Shown piece by piece: positions 22,895 to 40,609 of a DNA stretch of 64,000 nucleotides (the stretch's first letter is position 1; each line of letters begins with the position of its first letter). Under the pieces are notes generated by a model. That model worked only from the letters and a program-made list of their open reading frames with translations. It was not told where the DNA came from and did no database searches. The stretch spans positions 1 to 64,000 of the forward strand of contig VFZG01000017.1 of the NCBI GenBank assembly GCA_016871275.1. The letters are read 5' to 3'. Made by a program: the position numbers and the translations under genes. This DNA comes from Acidimicrobiia bacterium (lineage in GTDB: Bacteria > Acidobacteriota > Vicinamibacteria > Vicinamibacterales > UBA2999).

Positions 22895-24169
22895 CTATTC
22901 GTAGCGAAGCGCCTCGACTGGATCGAGCGAGGCCGCGCGACGGGCGGGCAAATAGCCTGCCGCCACTCCCACCAACAGCGACATCGCCAGTCCCGACGTG
23001 ACCGCCCAGAGCGGTGGGGCGACCGGGAAGCCCGGCGCCGCCAGTGATGCGGCCACGCCAATCACCACCGCGATGGCGACGCCGATCCCCCCGCCCACTG
23101 AACTGAGCATCGCGGCCTCCACCAGGAACTGCCGGCGCACTTCCGAGCGGCGGGCTCCGACGGCGAGGCGGACGCCGATTTCCCGGGTGCGCTCGGTGAC
23201 GCTGATGATCATCACGTTGGCGATGCCAATGGCGCCGATCGCCAGGCTCACCATCGCCAGTCCGAGCGTGGCGAGGAAGATCTGGTACCCGAGTCGGTCG
23301 AACTGCGCGATGATCTGGTCCGCCGAATTCATCGCGAAGTTGTCGTCTGCGCCGGTCGGGACCTGCCGGATCAACCGCAGGATCGCGCGCGCTTCCTCGC
23401 GCGCCACCTCGCGCTGCCCGGGATGGGCGCGGATGTAGAGGACGAGATTGCGTGCCTCGGGAAACTTCCGCCGGGCCGTCGAAATCGGAACCGCTATCAC
23501 GCTGTCGTTGCGATTTTCGCCAAAGAACGTGCCTCTGCGCGGCTCGAGCTCGCCGACCACGTCGTAGCGATCGCCGCCGAGCAGCAGCGTCCGCCCAATC
23601 GAGGATTCGGTGCCGAAGAGGGCCCGGGCCACGCTGGCGCCCAGGATGGCCACCTGCGCGTAGGCGCGCGACTCGATCTCGGTGAACGGCCGCCCGGCGC
23701 GATATTCCGCTCCGACGACGTCGTGGAAATTCTCCGAGATGCCCTCGACCAGCACCGAGTCGGATTCGGTGCCGCCGGCCCGAGCCGTGATGACGCGGGT
23801 GCCGCTGACGGTCGGCACGATCAGTTCCAGACCGACGTCACGAATCGCCGAGCCCAGTTCGGTGAGCGGCGCCGCGTACTCGGGCCGCATCTGCGGCCTT
23901 GCGACATCGAGCTCGGTTGGCGCGGAGTAGGGCTCACCGTTGAGGTGATAGGCAAAGATGTTGTCGGTGCCAAGCTCGCGGAACAGCGTGGCCACGCTGT
24001 TGCGAAGCCCGACCAGAGTGGACGCGACGACGACCACCGTCACGATGCCGATGACCACGCCGCCGATCGCCAGCGACGATCGGAGTGGCTGCGCGCGCAG
24101 CGACGCGATTGCCAGCGCCGCCGCTTCCCGATCCGATGAGGAGACGAGGCGGCTCAACAACCTATTCAC
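22895..24169 (-). CDS. MacB-like ABC transporter permease (second)
   Basis: About 424 residues from GTG 24169; a TTG at 24184 is also possible. The layout is that of MacB permeases: one N-terminal membrane segment (SLAIGGVVIGIVTVVVVAS), a periplasmic domain of about 220 residues, and three C-terminal segments. TERTREIGVRLAVGARRSEVRRQFLVEA is the coupling helix. The end is PARRAASLDPVEALRYE, as usual for this family. It overlaps the preceding permease gene by 8 nt. No nucleotide-binding domain is fused or adjacent, so it must borrow an ATPase. Confidence 0.85.
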   Translation of the reverse strand: MNRLLSRLVSSSDREAAALAIASLRAQPLRSSLAIGGVVIGIVTVVVVASTLVGLRNSVATLFRELGTDNIFAYHLNGEPYSAPTELDVARPQMRPEYAAPLTELGSAIRDVGLELIVPTVSGTRVITARAGGTESDSVLVEGISENFHDVVGAEYRAGRPFTEIESRAYAQVAILGASVARALFGTESSIGRTLLLGGDRYDVVGELEPRRGTFFGENRNDSVIAVPISTARRKFPEARNLVLYIRAHPGQREVAREEARAILRLIRQVPTGADDNFAMNSADQIIAQFDRLGYQIFLATLGLAMVSLAIGAIGIANVMIISVTERTREIGVRLAVGARRSEVRRQFLVEAAMLSSVGGGIGVAIAVVIGVAASLAAPGFPVAPPLWAVTSGLAMSLLVGVAAGYLPARRAASLDPVEALRYE

Positions 24170-25382
24170 TCCGGATCGCGGCAATGACGTCGAGCCGGGT
24201 GGCGCGGACCGCCGGCAACCAGCCGGCGAGTATGCCGCTGGCCGCCGCGGCCGCCAGCGCGATCACCACCGACGGCCGGTCGATGCCCAGGGGAATCGGC
24301 AGCGCCGGCGATGCCGCCGCCAGCGCCAGGGCCACCATCATCGCGCCGCAGGCGCCGCCGATGAGCGCCAGCAGGACCGACTCTGCCAGGACCTCCCGGA
24401 TGATGTCGCCGCGCCGTGCCCCCAACGCCCGCCGCAGCCCAATCTCGCGGGTCCGCTGTGTCACCGACACGAGCACGGTGTTGGCCACCACGATGACCGC
24501 CGCCAGCATGGCCATGAGCGAAATCGGAACGGCGGCGGCGCCAATGCGGCTCGAGAGGTTGGCCACGAAGCCCCGTGCGGCTTCGGGTGCCAGCACATCA
24601 AAGGTGTCGGCGACCGCGGGATCGAGCGACCGGACGGCGCGCATCGAGGTGCGGGCGCGATCTTCTGCAAGGGTCGCGCCCTCTTGGCGTGGCGCGGCAG
24701 CAAACAGCTGCAGGCTGCGAGGGGCGCCGAGCGCTCGCTCAAAGGCCCGGATCGGAATCCAGACGTACTGATCGAACGAGCCTGTCCCGATGCGGCCTTG
24801 TACGCCGATGACGTCGAACCGCCGCCCCGCCAGCCGGATCGCTCCGCCGATCGGGTCGCCGTCCGGAAAGAGCGTCTCGGCGATGTCGGCGCCGATCACC
24901 GCGACCGGCGAGCCGGCCCGATCGTCGTCTTCGGTAAAGAACGTGCCGTTGACAAGGTTCAGGTCCCGAATCGCCGCGAGTGTCGATGTCGTTCCCGTGA
25001 TCGGCACCCGCTCGCTGCGGCGATGACCACGGACGACGTCGGCGCGGGCTTGCGCGTTGGGCGCATAGCGGACGATGCCGTCGGCGTGCCGGTACAGAAA
25101 TGCGGCTTCCCCTCGTGTGATGGGGGGATTTCGTTCGAGCTGATCCCGAAGTGCGGAGCGCGAAATGCTGCCGGGCGAGGCCACCTGGGCGATCAGGAAG
25201 GTGTCGGCCCCGAAGGTCCGGGCGGTCGTCACGGCGGCGTACTGCTGGATGCCGTCGAGCGCGACGTTGACGATCAGCAATGTCGAGACCGCGGCGGCAA
25301 TGGCCAGCGCGCCGAGGCCGGATCGCAGCCGATTGGCCAGAATCGCGGCAGCCGCCTGTGCGCACGCGCTTGCGAGCCGCAT
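24162..25382 (-). CDS. MacB-like ABC transporter permease (first)
   Basis: A 406-residue permease with the same one-plus-three membrane segment plan. The coupling region is TQRTREIGLRRALGARRGDIIREVLAES and the C-terminus is RATRLDVIAAIRSE. The start ATG (25382) follows the adaptor stop by 2 nt, so translation is coupled. With its overlapping neighbour it could form a heterodimeric mechanotransmission permease. Sequence similarity between the two is visible but modest. No ATPase gene is in the cluster. Confidence 0.85.
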   Translation of the reverse strand: MRLASACAQAAAAILANRLRSGLGALAIAAAVSTLLIVNVALDGIQQYAAVTTARTFGADTFLIAQVASPGSISRSALRDQLERNPPITRGEAAFLYRHADGIVRYAPNAQARADVVRGHRRSERVPITGTTSTLAAIRDLNLVNGTFFTEDDDRAGSPVAVIGADIAETLFPDGDPIGGAIRLAGRRFDVIGVQGRIGTGSFDQYVWIPIRAFERALGAPRSLQLFAAAPRQEGATLAEDRARTSMRAVRSLDPAVADTFDVLAPEAARGFVANLSSRIGAAAVPISLMAMLAAVIVVANTVLVSVTQRTREIGLRRALGARRGDIIREVLAESVLLALIGGACGAMMVALALAAASPALPIPLGIDRPSVVIALAAAAASGILAGWLPAVRATRLDVIAAIRSE

Positions 25383-25384
25383 GG

Positions 25385-26626
25385 CTAGCGGACCGGCCCG
25401 GCGCGCTGGATGAGTGCGCCGTCGGTCAGGGTGCGCAGCGTCTGGATGGGACCGGCCGCAATCGCGGTGCCTTCCGGAACGCCGTCGACCTCAATGGTCA
25501 GGCCGCCGATGATGCCGGTAGTCACCGGTGTGAACCGCGCGCTGTCGCCGTCGAGCACGAAGACGCCGCGCTGCCCGCTGCGTTCGACGACGGACTGCAA
25601 GGGCACCACCAGGGCCCCGGTCTTCTCGGCCGCCACGATCTCTACATCGCTGGTGAGCCCGGGCCGCAGCGAGGCATCGGCGGCGTCGAGCCGCACCTTG
25701 ACCCTGAACTCGCGCGCCGCCGCCTGCGCGCCGAGTTGAGGCAGCGCACTGGCGCCGATCTCGGCGACGCGGCCGGCAAACCGCCGGCCGGGCACGGCTT
25801 CGAGCGTGATCGCCGCCGTCAGGCCGACCGACAGGCGCATGACGTCGGCCTCGGCCACCTTGACCTCAGCGTTGATGCTGCTCAGATCGGAGATGGTCAT
25901 CAGGATGGTGCCTGGTTGATTCTGGACGCCGATCACGACCATTTCGCCGACTTCCACATCGAGTCGCGTCACGATGCCGTCAATCGGCGCGGTGACTTCC
26001 GTTTTCTGGAGCTGATCGCGTGCCCGCGCTCGCTCCGCACGCGCCTGCGACACGCGTTGCCCGGCAGCCACGGCGGCCTGGCGGGAGCGATCGAGCGCCG
26101 CGATGGCGGACGTGGCCTGCGCGTCGGCCGCTTCCGCGGCGAGTGCCGCGCGATCGAAGTCGGCGGCCGGCAGCAATCCGGCGTCGCGCAACTGCATCGC
26201 ACGGGCCAGCGCCTTGGCGGCTTCCGATGCTCGTGAGCGGGCTTCGGCGAGCGCCGCCTGCGACGTCCGCTCGGTCGTGGCCGCTGCATTGGCGTCCGAC
26301 TCCAGTGCGGCCACCGACGCATCGGCCGCGGCAGCAGCGGCCGACGCCTGGATTGGATCGATCCGCGCCAGGATCTGCCCGGTCTTCACGGTATCGCCTT
26401 CCTTCACCATCAACGACACCAGCCGGCCCATCATGTTCGAACCGATGTCGGCGTAGCGGGCCGCGACGATTTCTCCGGAGGCCGTCACCAGCGACTGCAG
26501 GGAGGGGACCCGCGTCACTGTCGCCGGCACGATGGAGGCAGCCGGCGGCCCGGCCATGGCGCGCCAGCCGATGGCGACTGCCGCCAGGACGAGAAGGGTT
26601 GACGCAACGAGCAGCGTTCGTGTCAC
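25385..26626 (-). CDS. Periplasmic adaptor (membrane fusion protein, HlyD/MacA family)
   Basis: About 413 residues from GTG 26626; a GTG at 26671 would overlap the upstream small gene. An N-terminal membrane anchor (TRTLLVASTLLVLAAVAIGW) is followed by a split lipoyl domain (VKEGDTVKTGQILARIDP and TEVTAPIDGIVTRLDVEVGEMV). These flank a long Ala-rich coiled-coil hairpin of about 110 residues. Beta-barrel and membrane-proximal domains complete the fold. It would link the two permeases to an outer-membrane channel; no TolC-like gene is nearby. It is the first transporter gene after the B12-MerR regulator. Confidence 0.85.
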   Translation of the reverse strand: MTRTLLVASTLLVLAAVAIGWRAMAGPPAASIVPATVTRVPSLQSLVTASGEIVAARYADIGSNMMGRLVSLMVKEGDTVKTGQILARIDPIQASAAAAAADASVAALESDANAAATTERTSQAALAEARSRASEAAKALARAMQLRDAGLLPAADFDRAALAAEAADAQATSAIAALDRSRQAAVAAGQRVSQARAERARARDQLQKTEVTAPIDGIVTRLDVEVGEMVVIGVQNQPGTILMTISDLSSINAEVKVAEADVMRLSVGLTAAITLEAVPGRRFAGRVAEIGASALPQLGAQAAAREFRVKVRLDAADASLRPGLTSDVEIVAAEKTGALVVPLQSVVERSGQRGVFVLDGDSARFTPVTTGIIGGLTIEVDGVPEGTAIAAGPIQTLRTLTDGALIQRAGPVR

Positions 26627-26636
26627 GGCGTTCCTA

Positions 26637-26855
26637 TCATGTGAGCGCGACGCTGGCGGGTGCGGCGTCACGAAGATCGTCGGTCAGCAGCGCCCTCAGC
26701 GCCTGTTGGGCGGACATCCGCACCGGCATGGGCGTCTTGATACGGAAGTTCACCCACAGCGGCACGATGGTTTCCACCCGCCGGGTGCCTAGCCCCCGCG
26801 TGGGACGGTCCAAGGCCGCGTCGAGGCGCCGCTGGAGAGCGCGGTCAAGTCGCAT
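26637..26855 (-). CDS. Small protein of 72 residues between regulator and adaptor
   Basis: ATG 26855 overlaps the regulator's last codons by 11 nt, and the stop lies 10 nt before the preferred adaptor start. The protein is soluble, Arg-rich and Leu-rich at the N-terminus (MRLDRALQRRLDAALDRP). A middle segment TIVPLWVNFRIKTPMPVRMS is followed by an acidic helix. No known family is recognised. The tight coupling on both sides supports a real gene, but composition alone cannot exclude a chance frame. Confidence 0.4.
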   Translation of the reverse strand: MRLDRALQRRLDAALDRPTRGLGTRRVETIVPLWVNFRIKTPMPVRMSAQQALRALLTDDLRDAAPASVALT

Positions 26856-27729
26856 GACGCTCGAGCAGGTCGCGGAACGCGTCCAGGCTGTCGACCCGCA
26901 GCGCCCGGCGGCCGAGCTGCTGCTGAAGCGCAGCGGACTGCGCGCCGCCGACCCAGATGGAGAGGCGAGACGGCAGCCGCTTGAGTCGGTTGATCTCATC
27001 GCTTGAAGGGCAGCCGGCGGCGGCCGCCAGCACGAGCACGGAAGGTTTGAGTGTCTTCACGGCGTGCGCAATGTCCGCAGACGGCAGGTTGGGGCCGAGA
27101 TACACCACGTCGCATCCGGCGGTGGCGGCAAGCACGGCGGCGGACAGCAAACCGAGCTCGTGCAATTCACCGGCAGGGGATGCGAACATCAGTTTGGCGG
27201 CGCCGGCCCGTCGCGGCAGTACCCGCAACAGGCTGCCGAGCACGTTCCGCACGGCGCCGGACAGCAGATGCTCCTGCGCGACGCAGATGTGTCCGGCCTC
27301 CCACTGCGTGCCTGCGTCCCGTAGCGCCGGTGCGATGACCCGGCAGACCAACTCACCGGGCGGCAGCATGAGAGCGTGGCGGGCGACGAGGTGTTCCACG
27401 GCGGCCGAATCGTAGCGGGCCAGCGCCTGTCGCAACGCCGCCGCATCGGCCATGGTCGGCGCAATCCCCGTGCGGTCGACGGCCTCCGGGATCGGGCTCA
27501 ACTTCCGGAGGTCCGCATCCGGCAGGCCGGCAATCGAGCCAATCGCGTGGCCGGTCTCCACCAGCGCGCGCAGCAGCCGTAGCCGCTGGATATGGCGGGT
27601 GGTGTAGGCGCGGCCGCGCTGCGTGCGGATCGGCACGACGGCGCGATAGCGGCGCTCCCAGGCGCGCAGCGTGTCCACGCTCAGCCCGGTCAGCTGGGAG
27701 GCGGCACGAATAGGGTGCTCGACGGCCAC
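26845..27729 (-). CDS. MerR-family regulator with B12-binding domain (CarH/LitR-like)
   Basis: A 294-residue regulator. Residues 1-75 are a MerR winged helix (IRAASQLTGLSVDTLRAWERRY). Residues about 95-175 form the four-helix cap with the CarH W-x9-EH signature (Trp143, Glu153, His154). The Rossmann part follows, with GELHELG (His190), matching the lower cobalt ligand of cobalamin. In light-sensing CarH the residue after the signature Trp is the His that binds cobalt on the upper face after photolysis; here it is Glu144. The gene starts with GTG at 27729, about 20 bp from three operator-like repeats, so autoregulation is likely. The adjacent efflux genes are probable targets. Confidence 0.85.
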   Translation of the reverse strand: MAVEHPIRAASQLTGLSVDTLRAWERRYRAVVPIRTQRGRAYTTRHIQRLRLLRALVETGHAIGSIAGLPDADLRKLSPIPEAVDRTGIAPTMADAAALRQALARYDSAAVEHLVARHALMLPPGELVCRVIAPALRDAGTQWEAGHICVAQEHLLSGAVRNVLGSLLRVLPRRAGAAKLMFASPAGELHELGLLSAAVLAATAGCDVVYLGPNLPSADIAHAVKTLKPSVLVLAAAAGCPSSDEINRLKRLPSRLSIWVGGAQSAALQQQLGRRALRVDSLDAFRDLLERHAT

Positions 27730-27739
27730 AAAGGCGTCA

Positions 27740-27768
27740 AAGATATGTCATGGACAAGTAATTGACAA
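27740..27768 (-). promoter_or_regulatory. Putative promoter of the B12-MerR regulator operon
   Basis: On the minus strand TTGTCA (27768-27763), a 17-bp spacer and TATCTT (27745-27740). The -35 box falls inside the operator repeats. Initiation near 27733 would make the message practically leaderless at the GTG (27729). Confidence 0.45.
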
Positions 27769-27781
27769 GTAATTGACAAGA
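27749..27781. promoter_or_regulatory. Three tandem 11-bp repeats, CarH-type operator
   Basis: Three adjacent 11-mers at 27749-27759, 27760-27770 and 27771-27781 (CATGGACAAGT, AATTGACAAGT, AATTGACAAGA). All fit nnTnnACAnnn, the pattern described for CarH/LitR operators, which are also tandem 11-bp repeats overlapping a -35 box. They lie just upstream of a MerR gene with a CarH-type B12 domain. Confidence 0.7.
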
Positions 27782-31414: not shown

Positions 31415-32193
31415 GTGGAAGGGGCCGGGCATCATTACAGTCCAAACGAATGGCTCATTTGGATTTAGGTCTCCCGACCGGACGCGTCGTGAGCCCGAGC
31501 AAGGGCGCGACTGTCGCGGCCCATTCGGCGTCGCCGATGGGTAAGTCTCGTCGAATGCATCGTCGTAGTTCATCGAGCTCCGACACTGTTTGAGGGGTAT
31601 TGACAAGCGCGAGCCAATTGTCTGGTTGCGGAATTGGCCATGGCGATAGCGGAATCAAGTGGCAATTGTTGCACTGCGCGTACAGGCTCCCCCATGCCCA
31701 ATGCTCAGCCGACTTCACGAGATTTTTCCGGAGTGCGTTCCGGTCTATGTAGCGGCAGACTCGAATCATGGAGGTGGTCGTCTGCACGGGCACTGCTTTG
31801 AACCGTCCTTGATAGACGTAGCCGCGGCCGCGCGCGTTGTGCGCGCCAGCCCACCGATTGGCATGTGTGCCCTCCATCCAATGCATATATGTGGATAGAT
31901 CTGCGATTCGATCGCAAGAAATTGAGAAATGCCAGTGGTTGTCGAGCACCTGGAAGTTGTGGATGCGAATGCGCCCGTGAGCTCGTTCGAGGGCTTCGTT
32001 AACGACGGCGGCGAACGCTTCGAAGTCGCGGTGGGTCAAGAACAGCTTTGAACCGCGGACACTACGGTTCATCACGTGGAACGCGATACCGGTGAGGGTA
32101 TGCCGGGGGCGTCTTGGCATGACGGGGACCTCCTCTCTTTCGGCCCAATCCGTCGCAAAAGCAATGCCGAAAAAGATCCCCGGCCCCTTACAC
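31415..32193. mobile_element. RAYT element bounded by imperfect inverted repeats
   Basis: Ends at 31415-31436 and 32172-32193 are near-identical inverted copies sharing AAGGGGCCGGG and ATC (about 18 of 22 positions). They enclose the tyrosine transposase gene. The right end contains the TAA stop of the upstream glycosyltransferase, so insertion was just at its 3' end. The interior looks less GC-rich than its surroundings. RAYT genes are normally flanked by REP-like palindromes; these ends may be that type. Confidence 0.65.
31455..32120 (-). CDS. REP-associated tyrosine transposase (Y1/RAYT)
   Basis: A 221-residue single-strand DNA transposase of the IS200/REP family. The HUH metal motif is DNHWHFSI (His62, His64) and the catalytic Tyr is in CRYIDRNALRKNLV (Tyr124). 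MPRRPRHTLTGIAFHVMNRS is the standard N-terminus, and the tail RPVGRPKSK is also typical. It appears intact. It has no accessory gene. Its host operon continues on both sides in the same direction, so it may be transcribed with the polysaccharide genes. Confidence 0.9.
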   Translation of the reverse strand: MPRRPRHTLTGIAFHVMNRSVRGSKLFLTHRDFEAFAAVVNEALERAHGRIRIHNFQVLDNHWHFSISCDRIADLSTYMHWMEGTHANRWAGAHNARGRGYVYQGRFKAVPVQTTTSMIRVCRYIDRNALRKNLVKSAEHWAWGSLYAQCNNCHLIPLSPWPIPQPDNWLALVNTPQTVSELDELRRCIRRDLPIGDAEWAATVAPLLGLTTRPVGRPKSK

Positions 32194-38794: not shown

Positions 38795-40609
38795 GTGGCA
38801 CTGATGGACCCCTTGCCTCGCCTGCTTCGCTACGCGACCCCGCACCGCGCCGTCATGGCCGGTGCGCTACTGGCCATGGTCGTGTACGGAGCAGCGAACG
38901 CATGGCTGGCGTACCTGATCCAGCCGATCATCGACGACGTGCTGATCGCGCAGAGCGATCTGACCTACATCGCCCTGGCGATTCTGGTGGCCTACTTCCT
39001 CAAGGGTCTCGGCGGGTATTTCTCCAGCTACCTGATGGAGGGGCTGGGCCATCGCGTCGTGATGGTGGTGCGCAACCAGTTGTTCCGGCACATGCTCGAT
39101 CAGTCCGCAGCGTTCTTCGCGCGCCGCGCGGTCGGCCCGCTGCTGTCGCGCATCAACAACGATGTCGGGCAGGTCCAGCGCGCGGTCTCCGAAACGATCG
39201 GCGACCTGGCACGCGAATCGCTGGTGCTGGTCGGCTCGGTGGCGCTGCTGTTTTATTACGACGTCAAGCTGGCGCTGCTGTGCATGACGGCGACGCCGCT
39301 GATCGTCTACCCGCTAATACGCTTCGGCCGCCGAGTGCGCAGTGTCACCCATCGCAGCCAGGAGGCGCAGGCGCAGATGTCGCATGTCGCTGCCGAGGCG
39401 TTCGCCGGCCATCGCATCGTCAAGGCGTTCGGCGCCGAGGGCCACGAGGCCGCAAAGTTCGAAACGGCGTCGTTCAGGCTGTTCCGCACCAACCTGAAGG
39501 TCACGCGCGTGCTGGCGCTGCTGCCGCCGCTGATGGAATTGCTCGGCGGCCTCGCGATTGCCGGCGCACTGTGGTACGGCAGCCGCGAGATTGCCAGCGG
39601 ACGGCTGACGGCCGGCGAGTTCACGTCGTTCCTGGCGGCGTTGCTGTTCATGTATGCGCCGATCAAGAAGCTGTCGCGGGTCAACGCCAACCTGCAGCAG
39701 GCCGCCGCGGCGTCGGAGCGGATTTTCGAAGTGCTCGACCTGCACACCGAAGTCCGCGAGCGCGACGGCGCCATCCAGCTGCCGCCCTTCACGCAGCAGA
39801 TCGAATTCAAGGACGTCACGTTCGGCTACGAGGACGCCCCCGGCCGCCACACGCTGCGCGGCGTGAATGTCACGGTCCGCGCCGGCCAGATGATCGCGAT
39901 CGTCGGCCGGAGCGGTGCCGGCAAGACCACCCTGGTGAACCTGCTGCCGCGCTTCTACGATGTCACCAGCGGCCAGATCCTGGTCGACGGCCGCGATATT
40001 CGCGACGTCACGCTGGCGTCGCTTCGCGCGCAGATCAGCGTGGTCACGCAGGAAGTGGTGCTGTTCGACGACACCATCGCCGGCAACATCGCCTTCGGCA
40101 CGCCGGGCGCGACCCCGCAGCAAATCGAGGCGGCGGCCCGCGCCGCCAACGCGCACGATTTCATCGCCGCGCAGCCACAGGGCTACCGGACGATGATTGG
40201 CGAGCGCGGCCAGCGAATTTCGGGCGGCCAGCGGCAACGGATTGCGATTGCCCGCGCGCTGCTCAAGAACTCGCCGTTGCTGATCCTGGACGAAGCCACC
40301 GCGGCACTCGACGCCGAGGCGGAGAAGGCGGTCCAGCAGGCCCTGACGACGCTGATGATGAACCGCACGTCGTTCGTGATCGCCCACCGGCTGCCGACCA
40401 TCTACCGCGCGGATGCCATCGTCGTCCTGGATCGCGGCCGCGTCGTCGAGATCGGCAAGCACCAGGAACTGCTGGCGATCCCCAACGGCGTGTACGCGCG
40501 GCTCCATCAGCTGCAGTTGCTCGAAACCAAGCCGGACAGCCGTGAGCTCAAGGCGGCCTACCTGGCGGCGGCGCAGGCGGCCGCGAAGGAGGCGGAGCGC
40601 TCGCGATGA
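38795..40609 (+). CDS. MsbA-like ABC exporter
   Basis: A 604-residue half-transporter. Six N-terminal membrane segments (about 15-310) precede an ATPase domain with Walker A GRSGAGKTT, Q-loop VVTQEVVLF, signature ISGGQRQRI, Walker B LLILDEATAALD and H-loop IAHRL. MsbA-type exporters flip lipid A-core or lipid-linked glycans. The location between a polysaccharide locus and house-keeping genes fits either. Start GTG 38795, or ATG 38804. Its stop overlaps the yicC start. Confidence 0.88.
   Translation: MALMDPLPRLLRYATPHRAVMAGALLAMVVYGAANAWLAYLIQPIIDDVLIAQSDLTYIALAILVAYFLKGLGGYFSSYLMEGLGHRVVMVVRNQLFRHMLDQSAAFFARRAVGPLLSRINNDVGQVQRAVSETIGDLARESLVLVGSVALLFYYDVKLALLCMTATPLIVYPLIRFGRRVRSVTHRSQEAQAQMSHVAAEAFAGHRIVKAFGAEGHEAAKFETASFRLFRTNLKVTRVLALLPPLMELLGGLAIAGALWYGSREIASGRLTAGEFTSFLAALLFMYAPIKKLSRVNANLQQAAAASERIFEVLDLHTEVRERDGAIQLPPFTQQIEFKDVTFGYEDAPGRHTLRGVNVTVRAGQMIAIVGRSGAGKTTLVNLLPRFYDVTSGQILVDGRDIRDVTLASLRAQISVVTQEVVLFDDTIAGNIAFGTPGATPQQIEAAARAANAHDFIAAQPQGYRTMIGERGQRISGGQRQRIAIARALLKNSPLLILDEATAALDAEAEKAVQQALTTLMMNRTSFVIAHRLPTIYRADAIVVLDRGRVVEIGKHQELLAIPNGVYARLHQLQLLETKPDSRELKAAYLAAAQAAAKEAERSR

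Follow-up and report, generated by a model that had tools for sequence, protein, structure and literature searches.

A CarH-type B12-binding regulator as the putative head of an efflux operon in an acidobacterial genome

CarH is known chiefly from genes of the carotenoid and photolyase type. The full-length protein of Thermus thermophilus (PDB 5c8e/5c8d) shows the domain order of CarH and class I LitR proteins, a MerR winged-helix domain followed by a four-helix and then a Rossmann B12-binding domain, and carries the motifs Wx9EH and ExHxxG. Its locus contains carotenoid genes, and its operator is built of three direct 11-bp repeats of the TnnACA type, one of which contains the -35 box. After illumination His132 of the Thermus protein takes the upper cobalt position (PMC10442372), and the four elements GxxW, EH, GxxH, and GxxxP have been reported as a light-response signature (PMC11796333). 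In Myxococcales paralogous copies of CarH/CarA occur in one genome, operators combine several true repeats with pseudo-repeats and in some suborders lie over divergent promoters, the Myxococcus operators serve carotenoid genes, and CarA is devoid of the Trp of Wx9EH (PMC9304148). Class I LitR genes are usually clustered with photolyase-related, DUF2177, amine oxidoreductase, DUF1365, cyclopropane synthase, desaturase, RudS, and SRPBCC genes.

The window analysed here is a stretch of 64,000 nucleotides, positions 1 to 64,000 of contig VFZG01000017.1 in a genome assembly (GCA_016871275.1) of 124 contigs and 4.0 Mb, which GTDB places in the class Vicinamibacteria of the Acidobacteriota. An earlier note on this DNA had proposed a B12-dependent MerR regulator with its own operator, linked to efflux genes. 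The regulator gene, which is termed carH in the following, occupies 26845–27729 on the reverse strand, starts with GTG, has an open frame with normal third-position G+C and encodes 294 amino acids. The HMM search suggested in that note matched MerR_1 (E=2e-14), the four-helix B12-binding_2 (E=3e-9), and the Rossmann B12-binding domain (E=6e-9) of Pfam in the order of CarH and class I LitR, and the W-x9-EH and E-x-H-x-x-G motifs claimed for the protein were both recovered by alignment. Thermus CarH is the best solved relative by sequence (E=1e-20), and an AlphaFold model with a mean pLDDT of 92 has 5c8e/5c8d as its best fold matches in the PDB (E about 1e-15). The Wx9EH motif is intact (W143, E153, and H154), all four light-response elements are kept, with G212 and P216 of GxxxP invariant in the CarH alignment, and the recognition helix retains the motif RxWERRY described for the family (PMC9304148). 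From the classic B12 motif D/ExHx2G-x41-SxT/V-x22-27-GG the parts ELHELG and GG are kept and SxT/V reads AAA. Against the NCBIfam equivalog TransRegCarH, a narrow model which assumes conserved function, the protein scores 104 bits (E=8e-30) at a cut-off of 400, which excludes it from this model but not from the wider CarH/LitR family. Judged by sequence and modelled fold, it is a CarH-type MerR/B12-binding regulator. Cobalamin binding is predicted, and the same genome encodes a PduO-type cobalamin adenosyltransferase.

While domain order, fold, and the two motifs are shared with Thermus CarH, the window protein differs in having Glu in place of His132, the position after the Trp, Leu and Asn in place of Arg176 and Asp201 (the equivalent of the dimer salt bridge), and AAA in place of SxT/V. 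As His132 and the Arg176–Asp201 pair are both changed, the textbook light response cannot be assumed, and the light response of a regulator without His132 is the main doubt on the mechanism. In a tree the protein falls into a four-member clade (support 100/95) together with that of genome G053, a relative from the same order, the second copy of G038, and that of G027, and all four are without His132, with Glu in the window and Glu, Glu, and Gln in the others, respectively. The window protein might be a CarH descendant which binds the same operator and regulates the same operon but is no light switch of the Thermus type, sensing instead the level of adenosylcobalamin (AdoCbl) or working independently of B12 like Myxococcus CarA. 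The replacement of His132 in the whole clade, the exchanges at the salt bridge and in SxT, and the observation that Thermus CarH H132A mostly stays tetrameric in the light (PMC10442372) all speak for such an explanation, but an earlier report, as far as it is cited in the same paper, describes full-length H132A as still falling apart in the light. In addition the Trp lost in CarA is retained along with the four light-response elements. Moreover 29 of the 60 further CarH relatives are without His132, for which reason it was not treated as CarH-defining, and other Acidobacteriota likewise have Leu/Asn at 176/201, so that both features vary among proteins which keep the rest of the signature. A window protein which is no Thermus-type light switch is regarded as possible but rather unlikely. 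The second CarH copy of G038 (L050:9868-10545) aligns only with residues 55–277 of the window protein and sits among recombinase-like genes without light-response genes.

The operator described in the earlier note consisted of three tandem 11-mers of the form nnTnnACAnnn. These are present at 27749–27781 (core 27751–27778), the only match in 64 kb with none in 100 dinucleotide shuffles, with the third being an exact tandem copy of 11 bp; they read, however, on the forward strand opposite to the gene, and two further half-sites to their left had been missed. The latter lie on the reverse strand at 27735–27749 (CGTCAA at 27735–27740 and TGTC at 27746–27749) and are pseudo-repeats by the TnnACA definition. 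A search for paired TKGACA half-sites 11 bp apart at the CarH loci of relatives yielded 29 distinct operators. Their consensus is TGTCAAnnaTtTGTCATGGACAAAnnnTTGACA, in which two reverse and two forward half-sites surround a centre. Lack of conservation of the repeats upstream of orthologues, which was to count against the proposal, was tested in this way, and the operator proved to be conserved near the majority of CarH genes in the class. Some CarH loci (e.g., L044, L050, L052, L053, and L161) fail the strict pattern, and at L103, an acidobacterial bin, an operator of tandem forward 11-bp repeats is found in its place (L103:7880-7950). A weight matrix built from the 29 operators with the window site left out gave 43.8 for the conserved core of the window site (27735–27766, forward strand, two reverse and two forward half-sites), and no unrelated site elsewhere in the 64 kb exceeded 0.7. 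In 18 efflux-only control loci the operator was absent, with 13.4 as the highest score.

Genome-wide counts of operators rest on pattern searches. With two mismatches allowed the forward half of the operator occurs in the whole genome only in the window and at position 84428 of contig C4, where a second carH copy resides. The scan for nnTnnACAnnn triplets proposed earlier found the window site, but its only other match, C30:5750, is a TCCACAC simple repeat; as it misses the other carH operator, the exact triple was abandoned as a definition of the regulon, and the pair/palindrome pattern finds CarH operators better. Unlike the C4 site, the window operator has an 11-bp unit duplicated exactly, which brings the forward half-sites to three beside the two reverse ones. 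Such a set of five in both orientations also distinguishes it from the three direct repeats of Thermus, and the mixture of true repeats and pseudo-repeats resembles that of Myxococcales. A single promoter-like site of the sigma-70 kind is found in the region, TTGTCA-17-TATCTT (27740–27768, reverse strand; mean number in shuffled sequences 0.0). It falls entirely within the operator and is directed at carH with a predicted leader of a few bases only. Its -35 box overlaps the repeats as had been claimed, and sits inside a TnnACA-type half-site as in Thermus. The window site accordingly shows the arrangement typical of the CarH family, tandem 11-bp TnnACA repeats which overlap the promoter-like site.

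On the same strand carH is followed by the genes of a putative efflux module. These encode a membrane-fusion or adaptor protein of the MacA/HlyD type (25385–26671; RND_mfp 150 bits, cut-off 94.9), the true start of which may be the GTG at 26626, and two permeases (permease 1, 24162–25382; permease 2, 22895–24184), each with a MacB periplasmic core and FtsX (Pfam MacB_PCD/FtsX) and without an ATPase domain. The adaptor and the two MacB-like permeases had been named correctly as the possible target in the earlier note, together with a protein of 72 residues, which is probably a gene remnant. This open reading frame (26637–26855, reverse strand) overlaps the end of carH, is the top six-frame match in the window (E=0.015) to an SRPBCC profile derived from CarH clusters, and aligns with the SRPBCC (START-like) gene directly after carH in G053 (E=1e-5 in a set of 13 proteins). 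No homologue was found among the relatives' loci, and with this and its resemblance to a piece of SRPBCC it was set aside as a new efflux component; that it is the remnant of an SRPBCC gene is held with moderate confidence from these comparisons.

It is the layout which argues for autoregulation and for the efflux genes as a target of carH. The gap between carH and the adaptor measures 173 bases, no promoter- or terminator-like site was detected between the two, and short gaps follow from the adaptor onward. The favoured reading, put at somewhat better than even, is that carH heads its own operon in the order carH, SRPBCC remnant, adaptor, permease 1, permease 2, and that this operon is autoregulated and derepressed by light or by lack of AdoCbl. 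In the dark AdoCbl-bound CarH multimers would occupy the five half-sites, cover the promoter from -35 to -10 and shut it. Light or lack of AdoCbl would make the multimers let go, carH and the efflux genes would then be expressed together, and carH would restore repression in the dark. On the other hand carH might be autoregulated with the efflux genes as mere rearranged neighbours under a promoter of their own, the broken SRPBCC gene being the scar of the rearrangement. The remnant at the junction and the 173-base gap would fit such a history, as would the fact that the module is usually unlinked to carH and has a different internal layout in close relatives. Against it stand the failure to find a promoter or terminator ahead of the adaptor, the common strand with its short gaps, and a co-directional second case in G014 as well as proximity in G008. 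A chance neighbourhood of this kind is considered unlikely.

Among 193 genomes of the class, 48 contain close relatives of permease 2 and 26 contain carH. Most copies of the efflux module have no carH nearby, and the closest relatives have the adaptor running divergently from the permeases; the module thus does not need CarH. Fourteen genomes have both modules, and in three of these (the window, G008, and G014) the two share an operon or are separated by no more than about 10 kb. A simple binomial calculation gives about 1e-4 for this linkage, a value to be read with the reservation that the genomes are related, the discovery genome is included, and G014 is inferred across a contig gap, and the linkage is taken as suggestive only. 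In G008, which is of the same genus, carH and the efflux module are about 10 kb apart and the adaptor is again divergent from the permeases. In G014 the genes are split between two contigs (C94/C84): one ends with carH, a TonB-receptor gene, and then the adaptor, while the other opens with permease 1, permease 2, a RudS-like gene, and a DUF2867 gene belonging to the CarH cluster. The efflux module thus probably lies inside the CarH operon there; the order is inferred, with some 0.9 kb missing between the contigs. An adaptor fragment stands behind the CarH cluster of G065, and genes for a permease, an ATPase, an adaptor, and an outer-membrane channel stand beside that of L103, the CarH of which shares the residues WE..EH..ELH..N with the window protein. 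A search of openly accessible papers for efflux linked to CarH/LitR, or for CarH in Acidobacteria, turned up no description of such a linkage, which proves little; nor did the papers searched contain an experiment on it.

With its MacA-like adaptor and its MacB periplasmic-core/FtsX permeases the module resembles MacAB-TolC and ADOP (TIGR03434), but its two permeases are separate, have no ATPase domain and score far below the cut-offs for MacB and ADOP. In MacAB-TolC the MacB ATPase is fused to or beside the permease, which is not the case here, and in place of the duplicated permease in one chain expected for ADOP (cut-off 622 bits) two separate chains score 107 and 133.5 bits. A scan for Walker A and signature motifs detected no ABC ATPase gene next to the module, neither in the window nor in the relatives' efflux loci of the same module, and a dedicated ATPase was rejected on this basis; the sole match in the window is an exporter-like reading frame about 13 kb away (39905–40294). 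An ATPase may be supplied in trans, or there may be none. Adaptors with two MacB/FtsX permeases and no nearby ATPase gene are widespread in the class (L077-L095). Elsewhere in the window, a reading frame resembling a REP-associated transposase by eye (31455–32120), with a lower third-position G+C of 0.66, lies between polysaccharide genes.

The second carH copy of the genome (C4:83048-83935) is found in the usual light-response cluster. The operator at C4:84428 lies between a divergent DUF2177–carH pair and a run of amine oxidoreductase, DUF1365, cyclopropane synthase, and desaturase genes, and a photolyase-related gene is located at a distance of about 9 kb. Such genes are typical of class I LitR clusters; none is intact at the window locus, where only the SRPBCC remnant recalls them and the efflux module takes their place. 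As the genome has this ordinary cluster with the same operator, the efflux operon would be an added target and not a replacement. The C4 protein falls outside the four-member clade, among cluster-type copies. By eye, a fasciclin-domain-like protein and an XRE-cupin-like regulator were noticed beside CarH clusters in three genomes (L042:2211-3662, L043:2000-3274, and L049:681-2016).

The two CarH copies of the genome have nearly identical DNA-recognition helices, and as their loci share the operator core they probably cross-regulate. The same likeness could mean that the window site is mainly a target of the C4 protein and that the local regulator is redundant or decaying. However, it is the C4 copy (L036 / L041:9010-10014) which lost the Glu of EH (Glu141 to Gly, giving AHGH, a change common to G021, L053), while the window copy keeps all four elements in an open frame of normal composition, and such a reading appears improbable. 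As the C4 copy lacks this Glu, the window CarH may be the only complete sensor of the genome, acting at both operators.

A CarH-controlled operon is of a known kind; unusual here are the proposed target, efflux, in place of the carotenoid genes served in Thermus and Myxococcus, and the clade of the sensor. It is conceivable, though the suggestion is tentative, that the clade comprises B12 photoreceptor-repressors without His132 which release DNA by another photochemical route, and that one was recruited in this lineage to light-switch an ATPase-less MacB-like efflux module. The contribution of His132 to light-driven release is disputed, and the four members lend themselves to a natural test of it. 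The consensus derived from 29 sites allows CarH regulons to be recognised in Acidobacteriota genomes. A role of the module in defence against photo-oxidative stress, for example by export of a photosensitiser or by reshaping of the envelope, is plausible because MacAB-TolC of E. coli exports protoporphyrin IX and its loss renders the cells light-sensitive (PMC4263509); efflux under CarH would fit this removal of a light-activated porphyrin. If the proposed operon is real, the second CarH copy would put export under green-light control.
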